Positions 11,498 to 39,801 of a DNA stretch of 64,000 nt are shown piece by piece. The DNA is taken from positions 1 to 64,000 of IMG/VR virus record IMGVR_UViG_3300018476_000013. The stretch is one strand, 5' to 3'. Each line of letters opens with the position of its first letter. Positions within the stretch are counted from its first letter, which is position 1. The DNA is from a virus. Position numbers and translations under genes: made by a program. The notes beneath the pieces were generated by a model, which was not told the origin of the DNA, did not search any database, and was given only the letters and a program-made list of their open reading frames with translations.

Positions 11498-11532
11498 TCC
11501 AAAAAATCCCTTCATCCCATGGGGTGAAGGGG

Positions 11533-11997: not shown

Positions 11998-12029
11998 TCC
12001 ATCGAAACACCCCAGACGGAGATTTGATT

Positions 12030-13055
12030 ATGGCTTCGGTACTTAGACAACTCCAGGCAGAGTGGAACGCGTTGGTTCCTGCAGCCCAGGCCCGTGGCAT
12101 CCGCCGCGTTAAGCTCCTGGGTCAGGGGGACATCCTGCGGGCACCCCTGGAGACCATTGCATATCGTCGCGCCAAGCTTGAATGGCTGCGGTCGTTGCTC
12201 GGTGGTTCCAGCCTGGCTGGCCTTGATGGTTTGCAGTTCGGTGTGGAGATCGAGGTGATCCTGCCCCGTGGCATGTCCCGCCGGGAAGCAGCAGCCAAGA
12301 TCACGGCGGCAGGTGTTGAATGCCACGAGGAATTGTATGGTCACACCACCCCCGCTGGTAAGTGGAAAGTGGTTACGGATGGTTCCTTGGGCTATGAACA
12401 AGGTGCAGAATTCGTGTCCCCTCCCCTTCGGGGTGAGGATGGGTTCAGGCAGATGCGGATTGTCTGTGATGCCCTGACGGCCATGAATGCCAGGATCACG
12501 GCCAAGTGTGGTTTCCATGTTCATGTGGATGTCGGCACTGAGCCGGTGGATTTTTTCAAGAACCTGGTTCGTTTGTATGCTTCGGCAGAAACCACGATCG
12601 ACAAGTTCATGCCGGCATCCCGCCGGGGTTCGGTCAACCCGTTCTGCCAGCCCACCCGGATCAACGATGCAGCCCTGACTGCAGCCACCAACATTCAGCA
12701 GGTGGCCACGGCCATTGGCCAGGACAACACCCGGGCACATGCCCGTAGTTCTCGTCGGTATCGCAAACTGAACCTGCAGTGCTTCTTCGTTTATGGCACG
12801 GTGGAATTCCGCCAGCATGGTGGAACATGTGACGCCCAGAAGGCAGCCAACTGGGTCCGCTTGTGCCTGCGCATGGTGCTGACGGCACGGGCCGGAGAAA
12901 AGACTGTGACCACGGTCGATGAATTGCTGGAGACGGTGGGTGCCGATGAAGCTGAGAAGGCATACTTCAGCAGCCGGGTGAACTACTTCAACCGGGCGGA
13001 AAATTTCGATCGGTTGTCGGATGCCAACTTCATTAATCGTCGGAGGCCAGTGTAA
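12030..13055 (+). CDS. Amidoligase family protein (COOH-NH2 ligase fold)
   Basis: 341 residues from the ATG with GGAG ten bases upstream. The pattern is that of the amidoligase family (PF12224), related to glutamine synthetase and gamma-glutamylcysteine ligase: FGVEIEV with E73 and E75 as likely metal ligands, a Gly-rich TDGSLGYEQGAEFVSPPL segment, CGFHVHVDV, and RYRKLNLQ...GTVEFRQHGGT. Such enzymes use ATP to form an amide or isopeptide bond. The next gene, joined by a TAATG overlap, is a gamma-glutamylcyclotransferase-like enzyme; this pairing is known from phages and suggests one makes and the other removes or recycles a gamma-glutamyl-type link. The substrate is unknown. Confidence 0.85.
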   Translation: MASVLRQLQAEWNALVPAAQARGIRRVKLLGQGDILRAPLETIAYRRAKLEWLRSLLGGSSLAGLDGLQFGVEIEVILPRGMSRREAAAKITAAGVECHEELYGHTTPAGKWKVVTDGSLGYEQGAEFVSPPLRGEDGFRQMRIVCDALTAMNARITAKCGFHVHVDVGTEPVDFFKNLVRLYASAETTIDKFMPASRRGSVNPFCQPTRINDAALTAATNIQQVATAIGQDNTRAHARSSRRYRKLNLQCFFVYGTVEFRQHGGTCDAQKAANWVRLCLRMVLTARAGEKTVTTVDELLETVGADEAEKAYFSSRVNYFNRAENFDRLSDANFINRRRPV

Positions 13056-24918: not shown

Positions 24919-25176
24919 ATGGACGTAGTAAAACTGACGGAAGAACGAGGTCAAGTCCATGGGGACTTTACCGACGTATCGGAGATCGCCCAAAGCTTAA
25001 AGGCCGTTGTCCGTAATGGCAAGTCATTCAATCAATTGACGAGGGTGCAGGTTGAAGGCCTCGACATGATCCTGCACAAGATCGCCCGGATCGTTTCGGG
25101 CAATGCCAACCACCATGATCATTGGGATGACGTCGCCGGGTATGCTCACATCGTATCGAAGAGGATCACCAAGTAA
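24919..25176 (+). CDS. DUF6378-like phage protein
   Basis: 85 residues. ERGQVHGDFTDVSEIAQSLK, QVEGLDMILHKIARIVSGN and HHDHWDDVAGYAHI follow the DUF6378 pattern widespread in phages, in which His, Asp and Glu residues are conserved in an all-helical domain that recalls MazG-like phosphohydrolases. The stop overlaps the next start by one base (TAATG). The activity is unknown; a nucleotide-related role fits the neighbours. Confidence 0.7.
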   Translation: MDVVKLTEERGQVHGDFTDVSEIAQSLKAVVRNGKSFNQLTRVQVEGLDMILHKIARIVSGNANHHDHWDDVAGYAHIVSKRITK

Positions 25177-26543
25177 TGTGTGGCTGGGTAGCACAAGCTG
25201 AAGTTGAAAACGATGAGCACTTCGCCGAAGCCATTCGGAGGATCAGCCATCGCGGCACTCGAGTGACCATCAAGGAAACAAACGGCAGCATCCTTGCTCA
25301 CTCCCGTTTGCCGATTGTCGGGCTGTCAGAAAAATACGACCAGCCCGTCGAGACGGATGACTGGCTGATTGCATTCTCCGGGGAGGTCCTGGACTTCAGG
25401 GAGGAAGACCCCGCTGCCGAATGTGATTTGCCTCTCGTTGTCGAGGGTTGGGAGCGGTATAAGTCCAAAGCCCTCAGGGGCCGGGATGGGTTCTGGAATA
25501 TCATCGCCATCGATAAAACAGATGGAACGCTCCACATTACATGCGATTACCTGGGACAGAAGCCAGCCTATTACCGGCAGGATGTTCTGGCTGCCGCTTC
25601 CGAACCGGATGCATTACTGCCCCTCGGGCCGGTGACATTCGATGAAGTGTACCTGGCAGCGGTGATCAAGTGGGGATACTGCCCGGAGATCGAGCGGACC
25701 CCTTACAATGAGATCAAGAAAGTCCGGCCGGGGGAGCATATCCAACTGGATGATCTTGGGACATTCGGCCAAGGACAAATCGTCGATCAATTGGTGCCCC
25801 GGCCAGGTGACCTGCGGAAGGAAATAGAACTGGCCGTCCGCCGGCGGGTAATGGCATCAGATGTGCCGGTGGCTTGCTTGTTGTCGGGTGGATTGGACAG
25901 CTCAATCGTTTATACCTTGGCCTCGTGCTATGGCCAGGTCAAGCCATATTACGTCGACCTCGGGGACAATGACATAGAAGAACGAATGGCCGTTGGTGCT
26001 GTCGCCGGCAAGGCCAAGGTCATGGAGGTCAACGGTTCTTCACTTGACATCCCGGTGATGGAGCAACTGGACTACATGCAAGAGCCCATCGACCTGGGTT
26101 CGTTGGTGCCACAGATCGCTTTGGCCCGTGTCATCCCTGAGAATGTTTGCCTGACGGGCGATGGTGCTGATGAAGTGTTCGGGGGTTATGGCAGGGCATA
26201 TCGTTATGACAGCCAGGGCTCGGATGTATTCCATGAATTGCCGGCGTGGCATCTGCCGCGGCTTGATCGGGTGATGATGAGGCACCTGATTGAAGTACGC
26301 AGCCCATTCTTGTCCCGCCGGGTGGTCGAGATTGGATTGTCCTTGCCCAGGGAATTGAGGACCGGCAAGCGGATACTCCGGGAAATCTTCCGGGACATCC
26401 TGCCTAAGAGCATTGCCGATCGGGCCAAGAAGCCATTGCGGATGCTGGGCATCAATGAAGCCCATCGCATTCATATGGTCAACGAGTTCAAACGGCGTCA
26501 TTACATCCGCAATGAAATGGATGTCGAGGAGATGAGTCGATGA
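25176..26543 (+). CDS. Asparagine synthetase-like glutamine amidotransferase
   Basis: 455 residues. N-terminal class II glutaminase: Cys2 (MCGW), RISHRG, LAHSRLPI and FSGEVLDF, where the usual oxyanion-hole NGE reads SGE. C-terminal synthetase: ATP-pyrophosphatase loop SGGLDSS (237-243) and LTGDGADEVFGGY, then EVRSPFLSRRVVE. Cellular AsnB is about 550 residues; this is shorter at the C-terminal end. It should transfer ammonia from Gln to an adenylated carboxylate, normally Asp. It overlaps both neighbours (TAATG, ATGA) and is therefore coupled to the C5-methyltransferase-like gene, which suggests that the real acceptor could be a carboxylated base. That is inference. Confidence 0.85.
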   Translation: MCGWVAQAEVENDEHFAEAIRRISHRGTRVTIKETNGSILAHSRLPIVGLSEKYDQPVETDDWLIAFSGEVLDFREEDPAAECDLPLVVEGWERYKSKALRGRDGFWNIIAIDKTDGTLHITCDYLGQKPAYYRQDVLAAASEPDALLPLGPVTFDEVYLAAVIKWGYCPEIERTPYNEIKKVRPGEHIQLDDLGTFGQGQIVDQLVPRPGDLRKEIELAVRRRVMASDVPVACLLSGGLDSSIVYTLASCYGQVKPYYVDLGDNDIEERMAVGAVAGKAKVMEVNGSSLDIPVMEQLDYMQEPIDLGSLVPQIALARVIPENVCLTGDGADEVFGGYGRAYRYDSQGSDVFHELPAWHLPRLDRVMMRHLIEVRSPFLSRRVVEIGLSLPRELRTGKRILREIFRDILPKSIADRAKKPLRMLGINEAHRIHMVNEFKRRHYIRNEMDVEEMSR

Positions 26544-34505: not shown

Positions 34506-34563
34506 AGCACTGAGGTAAACTTCCTCCAACGTGGTTAGCGCCACATCAGAAAGCCAGGATAGC

Positions 34564-37020
34564 ATGGTCAATAAGCCAAAAAAGAATTTTCGTAAACCCC
34601 TGGAAGATGACAAGCCGACAGGTAAGATCGGAGATGTTAGCTCAACAGATCCCGATGTAGCAGTTGCTATAACTGCTTTCGAATGGGCGGTGAAGTACGC
34701 CACGGAAATGGGTTGGCGGATTTTCCCCGTGCCGCCGGGATCAAAGAAATCCTACAAAGCAGCCAAGAATTCAGGTGGTCGCAATTGGGGAATGACTGAT
34801 GAGCCCAATGAGATCAAGAAAGATTTCCGTAAGTGGCCCAATGCCGGGATTGGTCTGCCGACAGGCGAGGTCAACGGCATCTTCGTCCTTGAGGTGGATA
34901 CTGTTGAAGGCCATGGGGTGGATGGTCCCTTTGAGCTGAAGAAACTGGAAAGGAAGAACAGCAAGCTGCCGAAGACCCTGATGGGTGAGTCTCCCACGGG
35001 GTCAGTTCACCGGTTCTACAAGTGGCCAGGATCATATGTGGTCAGTTCGGATAGCCGCTTGGCCCGAGGGGTGGATATCAAAGGCGATGGCGGCATGGTG
35101 GTCGCGCCACCCAGCAAGACCAGCAAGGGTCTTTACCGGTGGATCAATTGGGGTCATCCCATTGCTGAGGCGCCTCAGTGGTTGCTGGATCTGGTCGCCC
35201 GTCCCCAGCGGACAAGCAATAACAACAGCACCAGCAATCCATTCCTGAATAACAACCATCAGCCGCCAGTCGAAGAGGACAAGTTGCGGCACATGCTGTC
35301 GTTGCTGCCCAATGAGGACAGCATGGCTGCTGATGAGCCTGAAGGCCTGTGGGGGTTCTGGAATAAAGTAGCCATGATCATCTGGACCGAAACGCATGGG
35401 GCTGAGGAAGGCCGGGAGTTGTTTCGGGAATGGTCAAAGAAGAACCCAAAGCATACGGACAAAGGCACCGACAAGAAATGGGAATTGCTGGACTCGTGCC
35501 CGCCTGACCATATCACCATTGGGTCGTTGTTTCACTTGGTCGAAAAAGTAGCTCCCGGTTGGCAACGGCAATGGGGCAATGACAAGACACGGGCAACCTG
35601 GGACAGCATTGAAGAACGGCGGGCAGCACAGATCCGGGGCAATGTGGAGATCGGGGAAGAGATCCTCGAGCCGACCCTGCCATTGATCATGACCTTGAAG
35701 GAAATGGAAGAGCGGCTGGTCTGGGTGGGTTCAGGACCTGGGGCAGTGGTGGATCGGATCACAGGGCGGATCAGGAAGAAGGAAACGGCCTCCACTGAAT
35801 ACGCTGCCTCGACCTACAAGATTGGGACCGGGAAAAAGGAAAAAGAAATACCGGCCCTCAAGATCTGGTTTGCTATGCCCGAGCGGACGTCCGTGGATAC
35901 GATTGCATGGGTGCCTGGGGAGGATCAGATTTGCGCGCCACCCGAGGCCCTGGAGGGCACTAAGACGGCATTCAATACCTGGCAAGGCTTGCATCCAATG
36001 CCTGTGCCAGATGATTGGGAGCGGATGGCTCAGCCGTTCCTAGATCATGTGGCTTATTTGGTCCCTGATGAGATCCAGCGGCGGCGGTTCATTCAATGGC
36101 TGGCGCACATCGTTCAGCACCCCGAGGTGTTGCCGCATACGTCTTATCTGATGGTCACACCAACCACGGGCGTGGGGCGGAATTTGTTGGCGTCCATCCT
36201 GGTGCGGGTGCTCAAAGGCCATGTGGCTGTCGGCGTGTCATTGCCTGATCTGCTGGAGGGCAAAGGGTTCAATGGTCGGCTGTCTCGGAAGCTGCTTTGT
36301 ATCGTGGATGAAGCCCGTGAAGGTCCGAACAGCCAGCGGTATCAACGGGAGAACCGCCTGCGGTCGTTGATCACGGAAGAACACCGGTTGATCAATCCCA
36401 AGTATGGCCTGCAATCGATTGAGAAGAATTGCTGTCGGTGGCTGATGTTCTCGAATTACCTGGACGCGTTGCCATTCAACAATGAGGACCGACGCATTGA
36501 GGTCATCGCGAACCCGAAGGAACGGAAGCCCAATGAATACTATGAGCAGCTGTATGGCATGCTCGAAGATCGGGCGTTCATTGCATCGGTTCGGCAATTG
36601 CTGATGACATGGAATATCTCGGGCTTCAAACCTGGCGAACATGCCACGATGAGTGGGGCCAAGAAAGAAGCATTGTCATTGCTGAAATCTGATGTCGAGC
36701 ATCGGGTGGATGAGTTCAAAGAGGATTGCGAGACCCCGCTGACTTCCCGTTGGGCTATTGAAGAGGCTGTTCGTGAACTGCACCCCAACAGCACGCATTT
36801 GACGCACGCCATCAGCAATGCGGGGATGATCAACACAGGTCGCCGAGTTAGAGATTCGGAAGGCCACCGCTACCGGGTGGTCATTGTCGATAAGGATGCT
36901 TGGTCAGTTGATATGGTGATGAGGGTGGATCATCAGGTTCTGCTCCGTGCCATGGGGATTGAACAGCAGCCACAAGCGACAGGTGGAATTGCTAATGTGC
37001 CCCGTGGAGGTCGTCGATAA
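34564..37020 (+). CDS. Bifunctional primase-polymerase / SF3-like helicase
   Basis: 818 residues from the ATG behind GCCAGGATAGC; an in-frame GTG at 34531 is weaker. N-terminal PrimPol domain (about 35-230) with GWRIFPVPPGSKK, VLEVDT as the acidic catalytic motif and GVDIKGDGGMVVAPPS. A PriCT-like part follows (NKVAMIIWTETHGAEEGREL). The C-terminal helicase domain resembles DUF5906: Walker A region TPTTGVGRN, where R539 replaces the usual Lys, Walker B LLCIVDEA (D582, E583) and WLMFSNYLDALPF. It would prime and unwind at the origin; the likely origin lies just downstream (37048-37327). The Arg makes ATP use worth testing. Confidence 0.88.
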   Translation: MVNKPKKNFRKPLEDDKPTGKIGDVSSTDPDVAVAITAFEWAVKYATEMGWRIFPVPPGSKKSYKAAKNSGGRNWGMTDEPNEIKKDFRKWPNAGIGLPTGEVNGIFVLEVDTVEGHGVDGPFELKKLERKNSKLPKTLMGESPTGSVHRFYKWPGSYVVSSDSRLARGVDIKGDGGMVVAPPSKTSKGLYRWINWGHPIAEAPQWLLDLVARPQRTSNNNSTSNPFLNNNHQPPVEEDKLRHMLSLLPNEDSMAADEPEGLWGFWNKVAMIIWTETHGAEEGRELFREWSKKNPKHTDKGTDKKWELLDSCPPDHITIGSLFHLVEKVAPGWQRQWGNDKTRATWDSIEERRAAQIRGNVEIGEEILEPTLPLIMTLKEMEERLVWVGSGPGAVVDRITGRIRKKETASTEYAASTYKIGTGKKEKEIPALKIWFAMPERTSVDTIAWVPGEDQICAPPEALEGTKTAFNTWQGLHPMPVPDDWERMAQPFLDHVAYLVPDEIQRRRFIQWLAHIVQHPEVLPHTSYLMVTPTTGVGRNLLASILVRVLKGHVAVGVSLPDLLEGKGFNGRLSRKLLCIVDEAREGPNSQRYQRENRLRSLITEEHRLINPKYGLQSIEKNCCRWLMFSNYLDALPFNNEDRRIEVIANPKERKPNEYYEQLYGMLEDRAFIASVRQLLMTWNISGFKPGEHATMSGAKKEALSLLKSDVEHRVDEFKEDCETPLTSRWAIEEAVRELHPNSTHLTHAISNAGMINTGRRVRDSEGHRYRVVIVDKDAWSVDMVMRVDHQVLLRAMGIEQQPQATGGIANVPRGGRR

Positions 37021-37047
37021 TGGTGCAGAACGGAAACAAACGGTGAA

Positions 37048-37169
37048 CCAGACCCACCAGACCCACCAGACCTCCCATCCTGGAACGCCCCATAAAATAA
37101 CAATATAAACAGAAAAAAATTTTCCCAGCAAAGCGTAGGTGGGAGGTCTGGTGGGTCTGGTGGGTCTGG
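37048..37169. repeat. Long inverted repeat with 9-bp iterons around an A/T-rich core (origin candidate)
   Basis: 37048-37077 and 37140-37169 are a perfect 30-bp inverted repeat. Each arm holds CCAGACCCA, CCAGACCCA and CCAGACCTC (or complement), three iterons of nine bases. The 62-base spacer is A/T-rich in its centre (ATAAAATAACAATATAAACA, then A7-T4). No T-tract follows the second arm, which argues against a terminator. It lies directly behind the PrimPol/helicase gene, a usual place for a phage origin. Confidence 0.65.
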
Positions 37170-37201
37170 CGTTTCTGCTCCTGGTCTGCCCCAACCTGCG
37201 G

Positions 37202-37327
37202 TTATCGAGGCCCCAGGCTCAGTTACGGAGGCCCGCTGAACGCGCTACCGGATTGGGGTGGGTGTTGGTGCCCCATGGTGGATGACCACTGCAGGGGCCT
37301 CCGCTGCTGATTTAAGGGCCTCGATAA
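37202..37327. repeat. Second inverted-repeat system, 32-bp element in two opposite copies
   Basis: The element TATCGAGGCCC-N5-TCAG-N3-CGGAGGCCC occurs at 37203-37234 and inverted at 37295-37326, with a 60-base G/C-rich spacer. Within one element GAGGCCC recurs 21 bp apart, two helical turns, as for a protein binding one face. A third direct copy is at 39309-39340. The whole gap 37021-37450 has no credible protein frame. Confidence 0.65.
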
Positions 37328-37374
37328 AAATGACAGTTCCCTTCATTTTTTTGTCTTGAATGATATTTTACCTA

Positions 37375-37407
37375 TTGACCCCCTGAAGGGAAGGGCTTAC
37401 TGGTAAG
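37375..37407 (+). promoter_or_regulatory. Early promoter module copy
   Basis: TTGACC (37375-37380), 15 bases containing CTGAAGGGAAGGG, CTTACTGGTAAG (37396-37407). The downstream 18 bases match the copy at 11965. It precedes the gene at 37451. Confidence 0.75.
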
Positions 37408-37450
37408 TCCATCGAAACAGAGCAATTCTGCTCCACCGATGAGGCACCAA

Positions 37451-37816
37451 ATGACCTTCGTGATTTACCACATTTCTTCCACCATGCAGATGGGTCCGAC
37501 CGAGCACGGCAAGCCCCATTCCCTCTATGCCAAGTATTACAAGACCCGTGGTGCAGCCCTTCGCACCATGACCAAGTGGAATGAGGCAGCCATTGAGCGG
37601 GATGCCCAGCAGATTGCAGATGGTGCCACCAGTGGATGGGATCGGACCAACGGCATCGGACCTGGCCCCTATGGTGTGGCATCGGCAGAACATTACCATG
37701 CTCGTGTGGTTCGTCAGGTGACCCAGGTGAATTTGCTCTCGGGCAAGGAATACCAGGAAGCCAGCAACACCCCTGGTTATTGCAGCCCAAGTTCAGAAGC
37801 TTATTGGTCAATGTAA
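37451..37816 (+). CDS. Hypothetical protein
   Basis: 121 residues (MTFVIYHISSTMQMGPTEHG ...). Mid-part YAKYYKTRGAALRTMTKWNE is a charged helix; the end is polar. A GATGAGGCACCAA sequence precedes the ATG; an upstream in-frame ATG at 37439 is less likely. It is a single-gene unit between a module promoter and a terminator. No family is recognised. Confidence 0.6.
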   Translation: MTFVIYHISSTMQMGPTEHGKPHSLYAKYYKTRGAALRTMTKWNEAAIERDAQQIADGATSGWDRTNGIGPGPYGVASAEHYHARVVRQVTQVNLLSGKEYQEASNTPGYCSPSSEAYWSM

Positions 37817-37836
37817 ATTCAAAGGAGGTGAAACCC

Positions 37837-37863
37837 AAAGGGCCCGAAAGGGCCCTTTTTTAT
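37837..37863 (+). terminator. Rho-independent terminator
   Basis: AAAGGGCC (37837-37844) pairs with GGCCCTTT (37851-37858), six-base loop, T-run to 37861. An AGGAGG sequence lies just upstream (37824-37829) but no frame follows it. Confidence 0.85.
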
Positions 37864-37888
37864 TTGAAGGGAACTTGAAGTGAAAGGG

Positions 37889-37919
37889 TTTACTTACCCG
37901 TATTAAGGGCGTATGGTTC
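37889..37919 (+). promoter_or_regulatory. Early promoter module copy, diverged right half
   Basis: GAAGTGAAAGGG, TTTACT (37889-37894), then at 17 bases TATGGT (37912-37917) in place of the palindrome. It precedes the gene at 37964. Confidence 0.6.
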
Positions 37920-37963
37920 TTTGGTCGGACGGGATTGGCCCGCCGCAAATCAGGAATAAGATC

Positions 37964-38185
37964 ATGTCTCTCAGTTCTGTTAGCAAAGTAAAATCCCCCA
38001 GCATTTTCAAGTCGGCCGTCAAGAACCTTGGTGTTTATGTGGATACCACTTGGATGGATGATCAGGAATGTCTGTTCATCCATTTTGATGATGTGACCAA
38101 GGCTCAGGAAAAGAAGATTTCTGAGTTGGCCATCCGTTACAGCATGAAGATCGATATCTCGGACAAGGGTGCCATTTTTTCTTGA
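37964..38185 (+). CDS. Small hypothetical protein
   Basis: 73 residues from MSLSSVSKVKSPSIFKSAVK, with CAGGAATAAGATC before the ATG. An alpha/beta pattern (LGVYVDTTWMDDQECLFIHF, then KKISELAIRYSMKI). The frame stays open for 59 further codons past the TGA (see the next entry). No family is recognised. Confidence 0.6.
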   Translation: MSLSSVSKVKSPSIFKSAVKNLGVYVDTTWMDDQECLFIHFDDVTKAQEKKISELAIRYSMKIDISDKGAIFS

Positions 38186-38367
38186 TCCATTAGCCCAGCC
38201 GGCGGTGGCGCATGTAACACCGGCAGCCTGAGGGGAAGGTCATTGATCGGCAATGGCAGCATCCTTGGCAAGGGCAACTTGGTGGTCGGCTTTGTGGTGG
38301 GGTCTCAATCCAGAGAACCTTCCTGTGGAGTTCGGTACACGTCCTCGCATTCCCTGATCAGGTGATG
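38186..38367 (+). other. Transcribed intergenic stretch, open in frame behind the 37964 stop
   Basis: Between the TGA at 38183-38185 and the terminator the same frame stays open to a TGA at 38361-38363, encoding a Gly-rich stretch (SPAGGGACNTGSLRG, then LIGNGSILGKGNLVVGFVV). There is no ATG and only a TTG after GAGGGGAAGGTCA, so it is either a read-through extension, a TTG-started peptide or plain 3' UTR. No tRNA is seen. Confidence 0.3.
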
Positions 38368-38404
38368 ACCCCTGGCGCCTCACGGCTGCCGGGGGTTTTC
38401 TTTT
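38368..38404 (+). terminator. Rho-independent terminator
   Basis: ACCCCTGGC (38368-38376) pairs with GCCGGGGGT (38388-38396), nine pairs with one G-U, then TTTTCTTTT. Confidence 0.8.
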
Positions 38405-38458
38405 ATATGGTCACCAAAGTTTTGTGGAAAATTCCCTTCAAAAAATGAAGTGAAGGGG

Positions 38459-38490
38459 TTTACTTACCTGTAGGAATTAGAGTAAGCTCT
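38459..38490 (+). promoter_or_regulatory. Early promoter module copy
   Basis: GAAGTGAAGGGG, TTTACT (38459-38464), TACCTGTAGG directly after it, and GAGTAAG (38480-38486) at the normal distance. The palindrome halves are rearranged compared with other copies. It precedes the gene at 38532. Confidence 0.6.
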
Positions 38491-38531
38491 CTTTGTCGGC
38501 GGCAGGGGCCGCCCAAATCAAGGAGAAGATC

Positions 38532-38864
38532 ATGTCACGGTTTGTTTTGCGGGACTCGGGCTACACCACTTTCAAGAAGATCACCAGCGGCAAGAAATGG
38601 GTCGGTCGCGTTGGCAAGTGTGAGGATGGCAGGTTCTTCGGCAAGATCGGCAGCACATTCATTTATGCGGCCACGGAGCGTGAGGCATTCGATGATGTGG
38701 TCGCCAAGCACCTGGGCTTTGATGGGGTGGAAGACCTGAACGCCCACAACAGCCAGGTTCGGCATTCCAACAAGATCCGTCGGGCAGAGACCCGGGCGGC
38801 ATTCAATCAGATGATGGGTGGCGATTACAAGGCCCTCTTCGATATCCTGGGAAAGGTGAAGTGA
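38532..38864 (+). CDS. Hypothetical protein
   Basis: 110 residues from MSRFVLRDSGYTTFKKITSG, behind AAGGAGAAGATC. The N-terminal half is beta-rich (KKWVGRVGKCEDGRFFGKIG), the C-terminal half helical and basic (HNSQVRHSNKIRRAETRAAF). It may bind nucleic acid. No family is recognised. Confidence 0.6.
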   Translation: MSRFVLRDSGYTTFKKITSGKKWVGRVGKCEDGRFFGKIGSTFIYAATEREAFDDVVAKHLGFDGVEDLNAHNSQVRHSNKIRRAETRAAFNQMMGGDYKALFDILGKVK

Positions 38865-39111: not shown

Positions 39112-39176
39112 GTTGTCCCCATGGTTGTCCCGCGGTTGTCCCCAGGGTTACCAACACGCCAGATGGCACTTATACT
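39112..39176 (+). promoter_or_regulatory. Promoter with three GTTGTCCC iterons upstream
   Basis: GTTGTCCC at 39112-39119, 39124-39131 and 39135-39142 (steps of 12 and 11 bases). TTACCA (39148-39153), 17 bases, TATACT (39171-39176) form a good sigma-70-like promoter. This layout, different from the early modules, suggests a separate regulator for the nuclease and NusG-like genes. Confidence 0.65.
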
Positions 39177-39303: not shown

Positions 39304-39801
39304 ATGTATATCGAGGCCCTCAGATCAGTTACGGAGGCCCTCTGGTCGCGCTGGATGGCTGGGGTGGTGGTTCATATGCCTGGATTGTTTGATGGCCTTA
39401 AGCGCAATGCTGCGCGGGATGGTGGCCTGCCTAAGTTGTTCCGTCAGAACCTGACGACAGCCCAGTGGACCCCAGTAGAAACAGGAGCCACATCCCAAGG
39501 GGTTCCTGATCATGAATATTGTTTCCCTGATGGAGATCAGGGGTGGGTGGAGTTCAAGGCCACTGCCGCCTGGGCTGTGACCATCCGGCCCGAGCAAGTG
39601 GGGTGGTTGCTTCGTCGGCATCGGATGGGTGGTCGGTGTTTCGTAGCCATTCGTCGGCAACTCAGCGAACTATGGATAGTGAATGGGGCCGACGCGGGGG
39701 TGCTGAAATCAGGTGGATTGAAAGAAGTAGATCCATTGTTGATCAGTTACGAGCCATGGGATTGGCGCCAGGTTGAAAGAATTTTGAGGCAACGAAGATG
39801 A
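39304..39801 (+). CDS. VRR-NUC-like PD-(D/E)xK nuclease
   Basis: 165 residues from the first ATG. GVPDHEYCFPDG and GWVEFKATA give the D...ExK nuclease core of the VRR-NUC / Holliday-junction-resolvase-like family, with RPEQVGWLLRRHRMGG and FVAIRR after it. Phage members are thought to cut branched DNA. The start is unsure: no good ribosome-binding site precedes 39304, and ATG at 39376 (MPGLFDGL) behind GGGGTGGTGG is an alternative that would leave the 32-bp repeat at 39309-39340 in the leader. Confidence 0.8.
   Translation: MYIEALRSVTEALWSRWMAGVVVHMPGLFDGLKRNAARDGGLPKLFRQNLTTAQWTPVETGATSQGVPDHEYCFPDGDQGWVEFKATAAWAVTIRPEQVGWLLRRHRMGGRCFVAIRRQLSELWIVNGADAGVLKSGGLKEVDPLLISYEPWDWRQVERILRQRR
39309..39340 (+). 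repeat. Third copy of the 32-bp element
   Basis: TATCGAGGCCC-TCAGATCAGTTA-CGGAGGCCC, the same orientation as 37203-37234; both 20-base end blocks are identical and TCAG falls at the same position. It lies at the start of, or just before, the VRR-NUC-like gene. Confidence 0.7.

Follow-up and report, generated by a model that had tools for sequence, protein, structure and literature searches.

In phage P4, replication requires the crr region in cis, according to its annotation. The P4 alpha protein binds origin repeats with a winged helix, according to PMC4234260, which cites Yeo et al. 2002 on this point. In pRN1, a 100-nt stem-loop lies 54 bp behind ORF904, which encodes a PrimPol-SF3-winged-helix protein; the stem-loop is essential for replication and functional when relocated, and the terminator is a separate, dispensable small hairpin (PMC4234260). 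The pri-rep-ori region of PICI/SaPI elements lies immediately 3' of the initiator gene and contains an AT-rich stretch with an iteron set on each side, a layout that its authors considered to be shared by no other known bacterial replicon (PMC6092414). The C-terminal domain of SCCmec Cch2 binds repeats behind its own gene (PMC7581432).

A locus of comparable design was analysed in a 64,000-nt window, the whole stretch of DNA studied (positions 1-64,000 of the 78.3-kb IMG/VR record IMGVR_UViG_3300018476_000013). Terminase, portal and structural cement protein genes identify the record as a tailed phage. The locus holds a perfect inverted repeat that is very probably the cis-acting replication origin of the phage; the adjacent PrimPol-helicase is predicted to bind the 9-bp iterons of the repeat through a winged-helix-like domain at its C-terminus. 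An earlier note on this DNA had proposed a likely replication origin here, and comparison with other phages and the precedents of P4 crr, pRN1 and PICIs support that proposal. The features, with the evidence for each, are as follows.

34531..37020, + strand: initiator gene of 829 aa with PrimPol (PF09250), PriCT_2 (PF08707), SF3-type helicase (PF19263/DUF5906) and C-terminal domains (domain search)
36718..36908, boundaries approximate, + strand: segment encoding the predicted iteron-reading winged-helix-like domain, wing ~TGRRVRDSEGHRYRVVIV (hhalign, alignment)
37048..37077, + strand: left iteron cluster, CCAGACCCA CCAGACCCA CCAGACCTCCCA (sequence, repeat search)
37078..37139, no strand: spacer with an A/T-rich core (~37092-37125), candidate unwinding element (A/T content)
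37140..37169, - strand: right iteron cluster, the perfect inverse of the left cluster (sequence, repeat search)
37202..37327, no strand: second, imperfect inverted repeat with 33-nt arms, 76% (repeat search)

The earlier note had described a perfect 30-bp inverted repeat behind the primase/helicase gene, and both points hold. The arms are complementary at 30/30 positions across a 62-nt gap, and they begin 27 bp past the primase stop codon in a non-coding region; the whole element is a 122-nt perfect stem-loop. Three iterons of one type had been assigned to each arm. Three 9-mers are indeed present, as direct repeats with spacing 9,9, and two of them are perfect copies of CCAGACCCA, while the remaining one is the variant CCAGACCTCCCA, also written CCAGACCTC(CCA); only two therefore read CCAGACCC, and the third reads CCAGACCT. 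The 8-mer CCAGACCC occurs 4 times in the window, every time inside the arms, and a 25-mer of the arm is found at a single place in the whole record. When perfect inverted repeats with spacers of up to 200 nt were sought in 60 dinucleotide shuffles of the 64-kb window, the longest had 15-bp arms, against 30 observed.

The loop is A/T-rich as had been claimed. Its overall A+T content is 63%, and its best 34-nt stretch, which is the most A/T-rich 34-mer in the 64-kb window, has 85%, a value reached by only 3 of 63,966 34-mers, all three of them in the spacer. Opposed iteron sets flank this A/T-rich region. The turn in GC skew at 37.1 kb that the note had offered as a check was not seen; skew is positive on both sides, the same as for gene direction, and is therefore uninformative. 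No DnaA box (TTATNCACA) was found near 37.1 kb, which speaks against a DnaA-dependent origin. Rfam matches of the element to plant and animal miRNA families had scores below gathering, reflecting the hairpin shape only.

The adjacent gene encodes primase and helicase domains in one protein. The helicase is read as SF3-type because DUF5906 was also detected in P4 alpha and because the helicase matches phage primase chains of known structure, 6k9c/6k9e (match titled Primase), which we take to be NrS-1 phage primase structures. In its Walker A motif, Arg replaces Lys (TTGVGRN). This counts against the origin reading, although the GxGR variant is common to enterobacterial relatives with strong iteron clusters. 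Alignment of the enterobacterial C-terminal ends with the window C-terminus by hhalign gave a probability of 97.7% (E 1.5e-12) and spans the wing; on this evidence the window C-terminus is homologous to the domain that carries the iteron-tracking wing in relatives. A single-sequence structure model of the C-terminus had a pLDDT of 37 and no confident fold.

Relatives of the phage were sought by repeat, protein and whole-element searches. Those whose portal is 97% identical are fragmentary and do not include the origin region. An exact 25-mer search of IMG/VR returned mostly Gly-Ser coding repeats, and only one locus (L009) was of the origin kind. Matches to GGTGRGTCTGGTGAGTCTGG were rejected as origins, being apparently coding repeats only. 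The gapped inverted pattern in the window orientation had no match, the element had none among phages by BLAST, and PrimPol alone as query found no IMG/VR relative. BLAST of the element against plasmids hit mostly tape-measure genes, and these matches were not accepted as origins; two inverted repeats from a scan (L063 and L091) were set aside, with no primase gene recognised beside them among long ORFs.

A terminase alignment gave 80 loci, and 42 records were searched for DUF5906, which was carried by 4. Opposed repeats lie directly behind the helicase gene in 3 of these 4 (L046, L071 and L123; not L067). In L046, with a terminase 70% identical, the helicase gene is directly followed by two facing clusters of GTGTAGGGCA type around an AT-rich spacer, and the C-terminus of the helicase gives an RFX-like DNA-binding match that is weak and falls below the cut-off. 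The repeats are ATGACGCA words in L071 and GGACACATGGGTCACAT... words in L123. The layout is constant in the three, whereas each has iteron words of its own.

The layout was scored as opposed 8-mer pairs in 400 bp at the primase/helicase gene 3' end. The window scores 47, a value reached by 0 of 970 other 400-bp windows of a 40-kb stretch, and the P4 control scores 18 at crr. Scores of >=8 were obtained at 9/24 relatives and 11/349 control gene 3' ends (Fisher p=4e-7, a guide only, because the relatives, picked by protein similarity or terminase, are not all independent by descent and the control gene ends include some without intergenic space). Scores of >=24 were obtained at 4/24 relatives and 0/349 controls. 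The layout is not universal, with 15/24 relatives under the threshold. Some of the 24 were picked for their resemblance to the L009 and L027 primases. These two loci were themselves found by repeat search and were excluded from the counts; in both of them the array lies directly behind the primase gene. Iteron orientation varies, which together with the incomplete recurrence weighs against the origin reading: the window has the C-rich strand first, and L009 and the enterobacterial central pair have the G-rich strand first. In Methanosarcinales virus vir525 (L036, 4380-4800), many copies of TGCGGGTAT in both orientations follow a primase gene and probably mark an origin of this kind in an archaeal virus.

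Of the helicases found, the nearest are those of E. coli phage 606R2 and of Serratia and other enterobacterial prophages, ~30% identical to that of the window. In all 7 loci fetched via these helicases, iteron clusters with an AT-rich spacer follow directly on the gene, and no other stretch of these loci scores as high as the gene 3' end; 6 further E. coli prophage loci show the same layout. One locus (L154, E. coli VL7S7) was left unscored because IS1 truncates its primase gene: the insertion cuts the end of the DUF5906 gene, and the stretch fetched contains no origin region.

Three iteron forms, GGTAACAG, GGTGACGG and GGTGGCAG, occur in this group and change in concert, one form accounting for up to 10/10 copies per genome. 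A short C-terminal protein segment that resembles a winged-helix wing has three variants, and these correspond to the three iteron forms in 14/14 loci. Even where the helicase parts of two proteins are 97-100% identical, the wing differs with the iteron. The preceding helix and the following tail combine in ways that do not track the iteron form; simple linkage therefore fails to explain the match. One locus (L144) has the wing and iteron of Serratia and otherwise a protein of the E. coli group. A permutation test on the 7 distinct haplotypes, which are related by descent, gave 2/140, a modest support. This covariation belongs to the ~30%-identical relatives and was not seen in the window phage itself.

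Further repeats surround the element. The imperfect repeat at 37202-37327 has an RNA fold z of -3.8, and its left part recurs as a 77% copy 2.1 kb further downstream (39309-39372), where the 39304 ORF begins; the repeat may belong to the adjoining origin or control the next genes. A second iteron-like site consists of three direct copies of GTTGTCCC with spacing of 11-12 bp, followed by an A/T-leaning stretch. An intergenic element, GTGAAGGGGTTTACTT, recurs on the + strand at 11531, 11963, 16313, 18644, 37887 and 38457, most copies being followed by CTTAC.GGTAAG-like bases, and is perhaps the phage's own promoter family. Elsewhere in the window, a putative amidoligase and an asparagine-synthase-like protein are encoded (12024-13055 and 25176-26543).

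Three other functions were weighed for the inverted repeat. As an RNA element, it would be a long hairpin ending the primase transcript, stopping transcription or protecting the mRNA end, and the transcribed strand does have a very stable predicted fold (-91.6 kcal/mol, z -8.6). A hairpin has no need of tandem 9-mers, however, and the loop is 62 nt long. The absence of a T-tract, from which the note had argued that this is no terminator, was confirmed after the right arm, and a + strand scan found no terminator-like site there. In pRN1 the terminator is a separate hairpin (PMC4234260). In relatives the iterons are dispersed, lie in both orientations and change with the protein wing, which an RNA hairpin leaves unexplained. 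An RNA function is therefore considered improbable.

Initiators often regulate their own genes, as is established for iteron plasmids, and the repeats could accordingly be an operator or control site at which the initiator or another phage regulator governs its own or downstream transcription, with replication starting elsewhere. The additional repeat sets nearby, at 37202-37327 and the three GTTGTCCC copies at 39112-39142, would fit such a site. The element, however, lies behind the primase gene and not before it, a scan of 36800-38600 for sigma-70 sites only found no promoter-like site, and homologous positions are experimental replication sites in P4, pRN1 and PICIs; control of transcription is rated no higher than the RNA hairpin. 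A perfect inverted repeat of this length, spaced and intergenic, could also be a partition or packaging site, or else a mobile miniature inverted-repeat element. The single copy in the record, the lack of a visible target duplication and the recurrence of such arrays in unrelated phages, at the same place behind the gene family and with different sequences, make this the least probable of the three.

Under the preferred reading, a replication origin, the PrimPol-helicase would bind the 9-bp iterons (GGTGGGTCT/AGACCCACC) through its C-terminal winged-helix-like domain. Because the iteron clusters are oppositely oriented, two helicase assemblies would be placed head to head, with the A/T-rich spacer between them. 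This spacer would be melted by the SF3-type helicase, and the PrimPol domain would lay the first primers on both exposed strands, giving two diverging forks. These would probably be extended by the phage's own family-A polymerase, whose gene is in the record on the other strand. Binding, melting, priming and origin activity are thus proposed for the window phage by comparison, and the first steps have experimental precedents, since P4 alpha and Cch2 bind repeats and the stem-loop of pRN1 is both needed and functional at another place.

Few environmental phages have a known origin, and a sequence rule of opposed iterons around an A/T-rich spacer behind a PrimPol/SF3 helicase gene would yield many candidates. 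The wing-iteron covariation points to specific residues. No report of such covariation, or of iterons forming a perfect stem-loop, was found in the literature searched, which most subscription papers lay outside, and the novelty of both is provisional.

The window element appears, from its sequence and by analogy, to belong to a kind already known from P4 crr, pRN1 and PICI pri-rep-ori. It shares with P4 alpha/crr the DUF5906 helicase, an iteron beginning GGTGA, which is an 8-mer in P4, and the placement of iterons, in both orientations, directly after the gene. P4 differs in its Toprim-type primase, where the window phage has PrimPol, and in having two 120-bp repeat blocks, a second distant origin (ori1) and no perfect stem-loop. 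With pRN1 the window shares PrimPol, an SF3-type helicase, a stem-loop close behind the gene and, by prediction, a winged-helix-like domain; the pRN1 stem is 21 nt with a loop of 58 nt, against 30 and 62 in the window (PMC4234260), and it is without recognised iterons, whereas the window stem arms are the iterons. The stem-loop of Bordetella phage BIP-1 is grouped with that of pRN1 as a likeness. The inverted form, which the earlier note did not know from other phages of this kind, has thus already been described, as two iteron sets in PICIs and as a stem-loop in pRN1 and BIP-1.

In the PICI/SaPI pri-rep-ori, too, an AT-rich region lies between two iteron sets, and the initiator gene is immediately upstream (PMC6092414). 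These elements are satellite islands without their own virion genes and have other iterons, whereas the window phage is a complete tailed phage encoding terminase, portal and structural cement protein. The enterobacterial group (L128/L142-L155, including 606R2 and the Serratia prophages) has the GxGR motif and iterons with an AT-rich spacer behind the gene, and differs in having more clusters, with as many as five copies on each strand, different iteron words and the G-rich strand first around the centre. Evenly balanced in our estimate is a wider generalisation, that PrimPol/SF3 phages form a broad class in which origin specificity is set by one exchangeable pair, replaced together by recombination: a 9-bp iteron beside the initiator gene and the wing in the C-terminal winged helix of the initiator. 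The window phage would then combine in one element the stem-loop of pRN1 and the iterons of PICI/P4, two designs that had been described apart, which would imply a single kind of origin for both.
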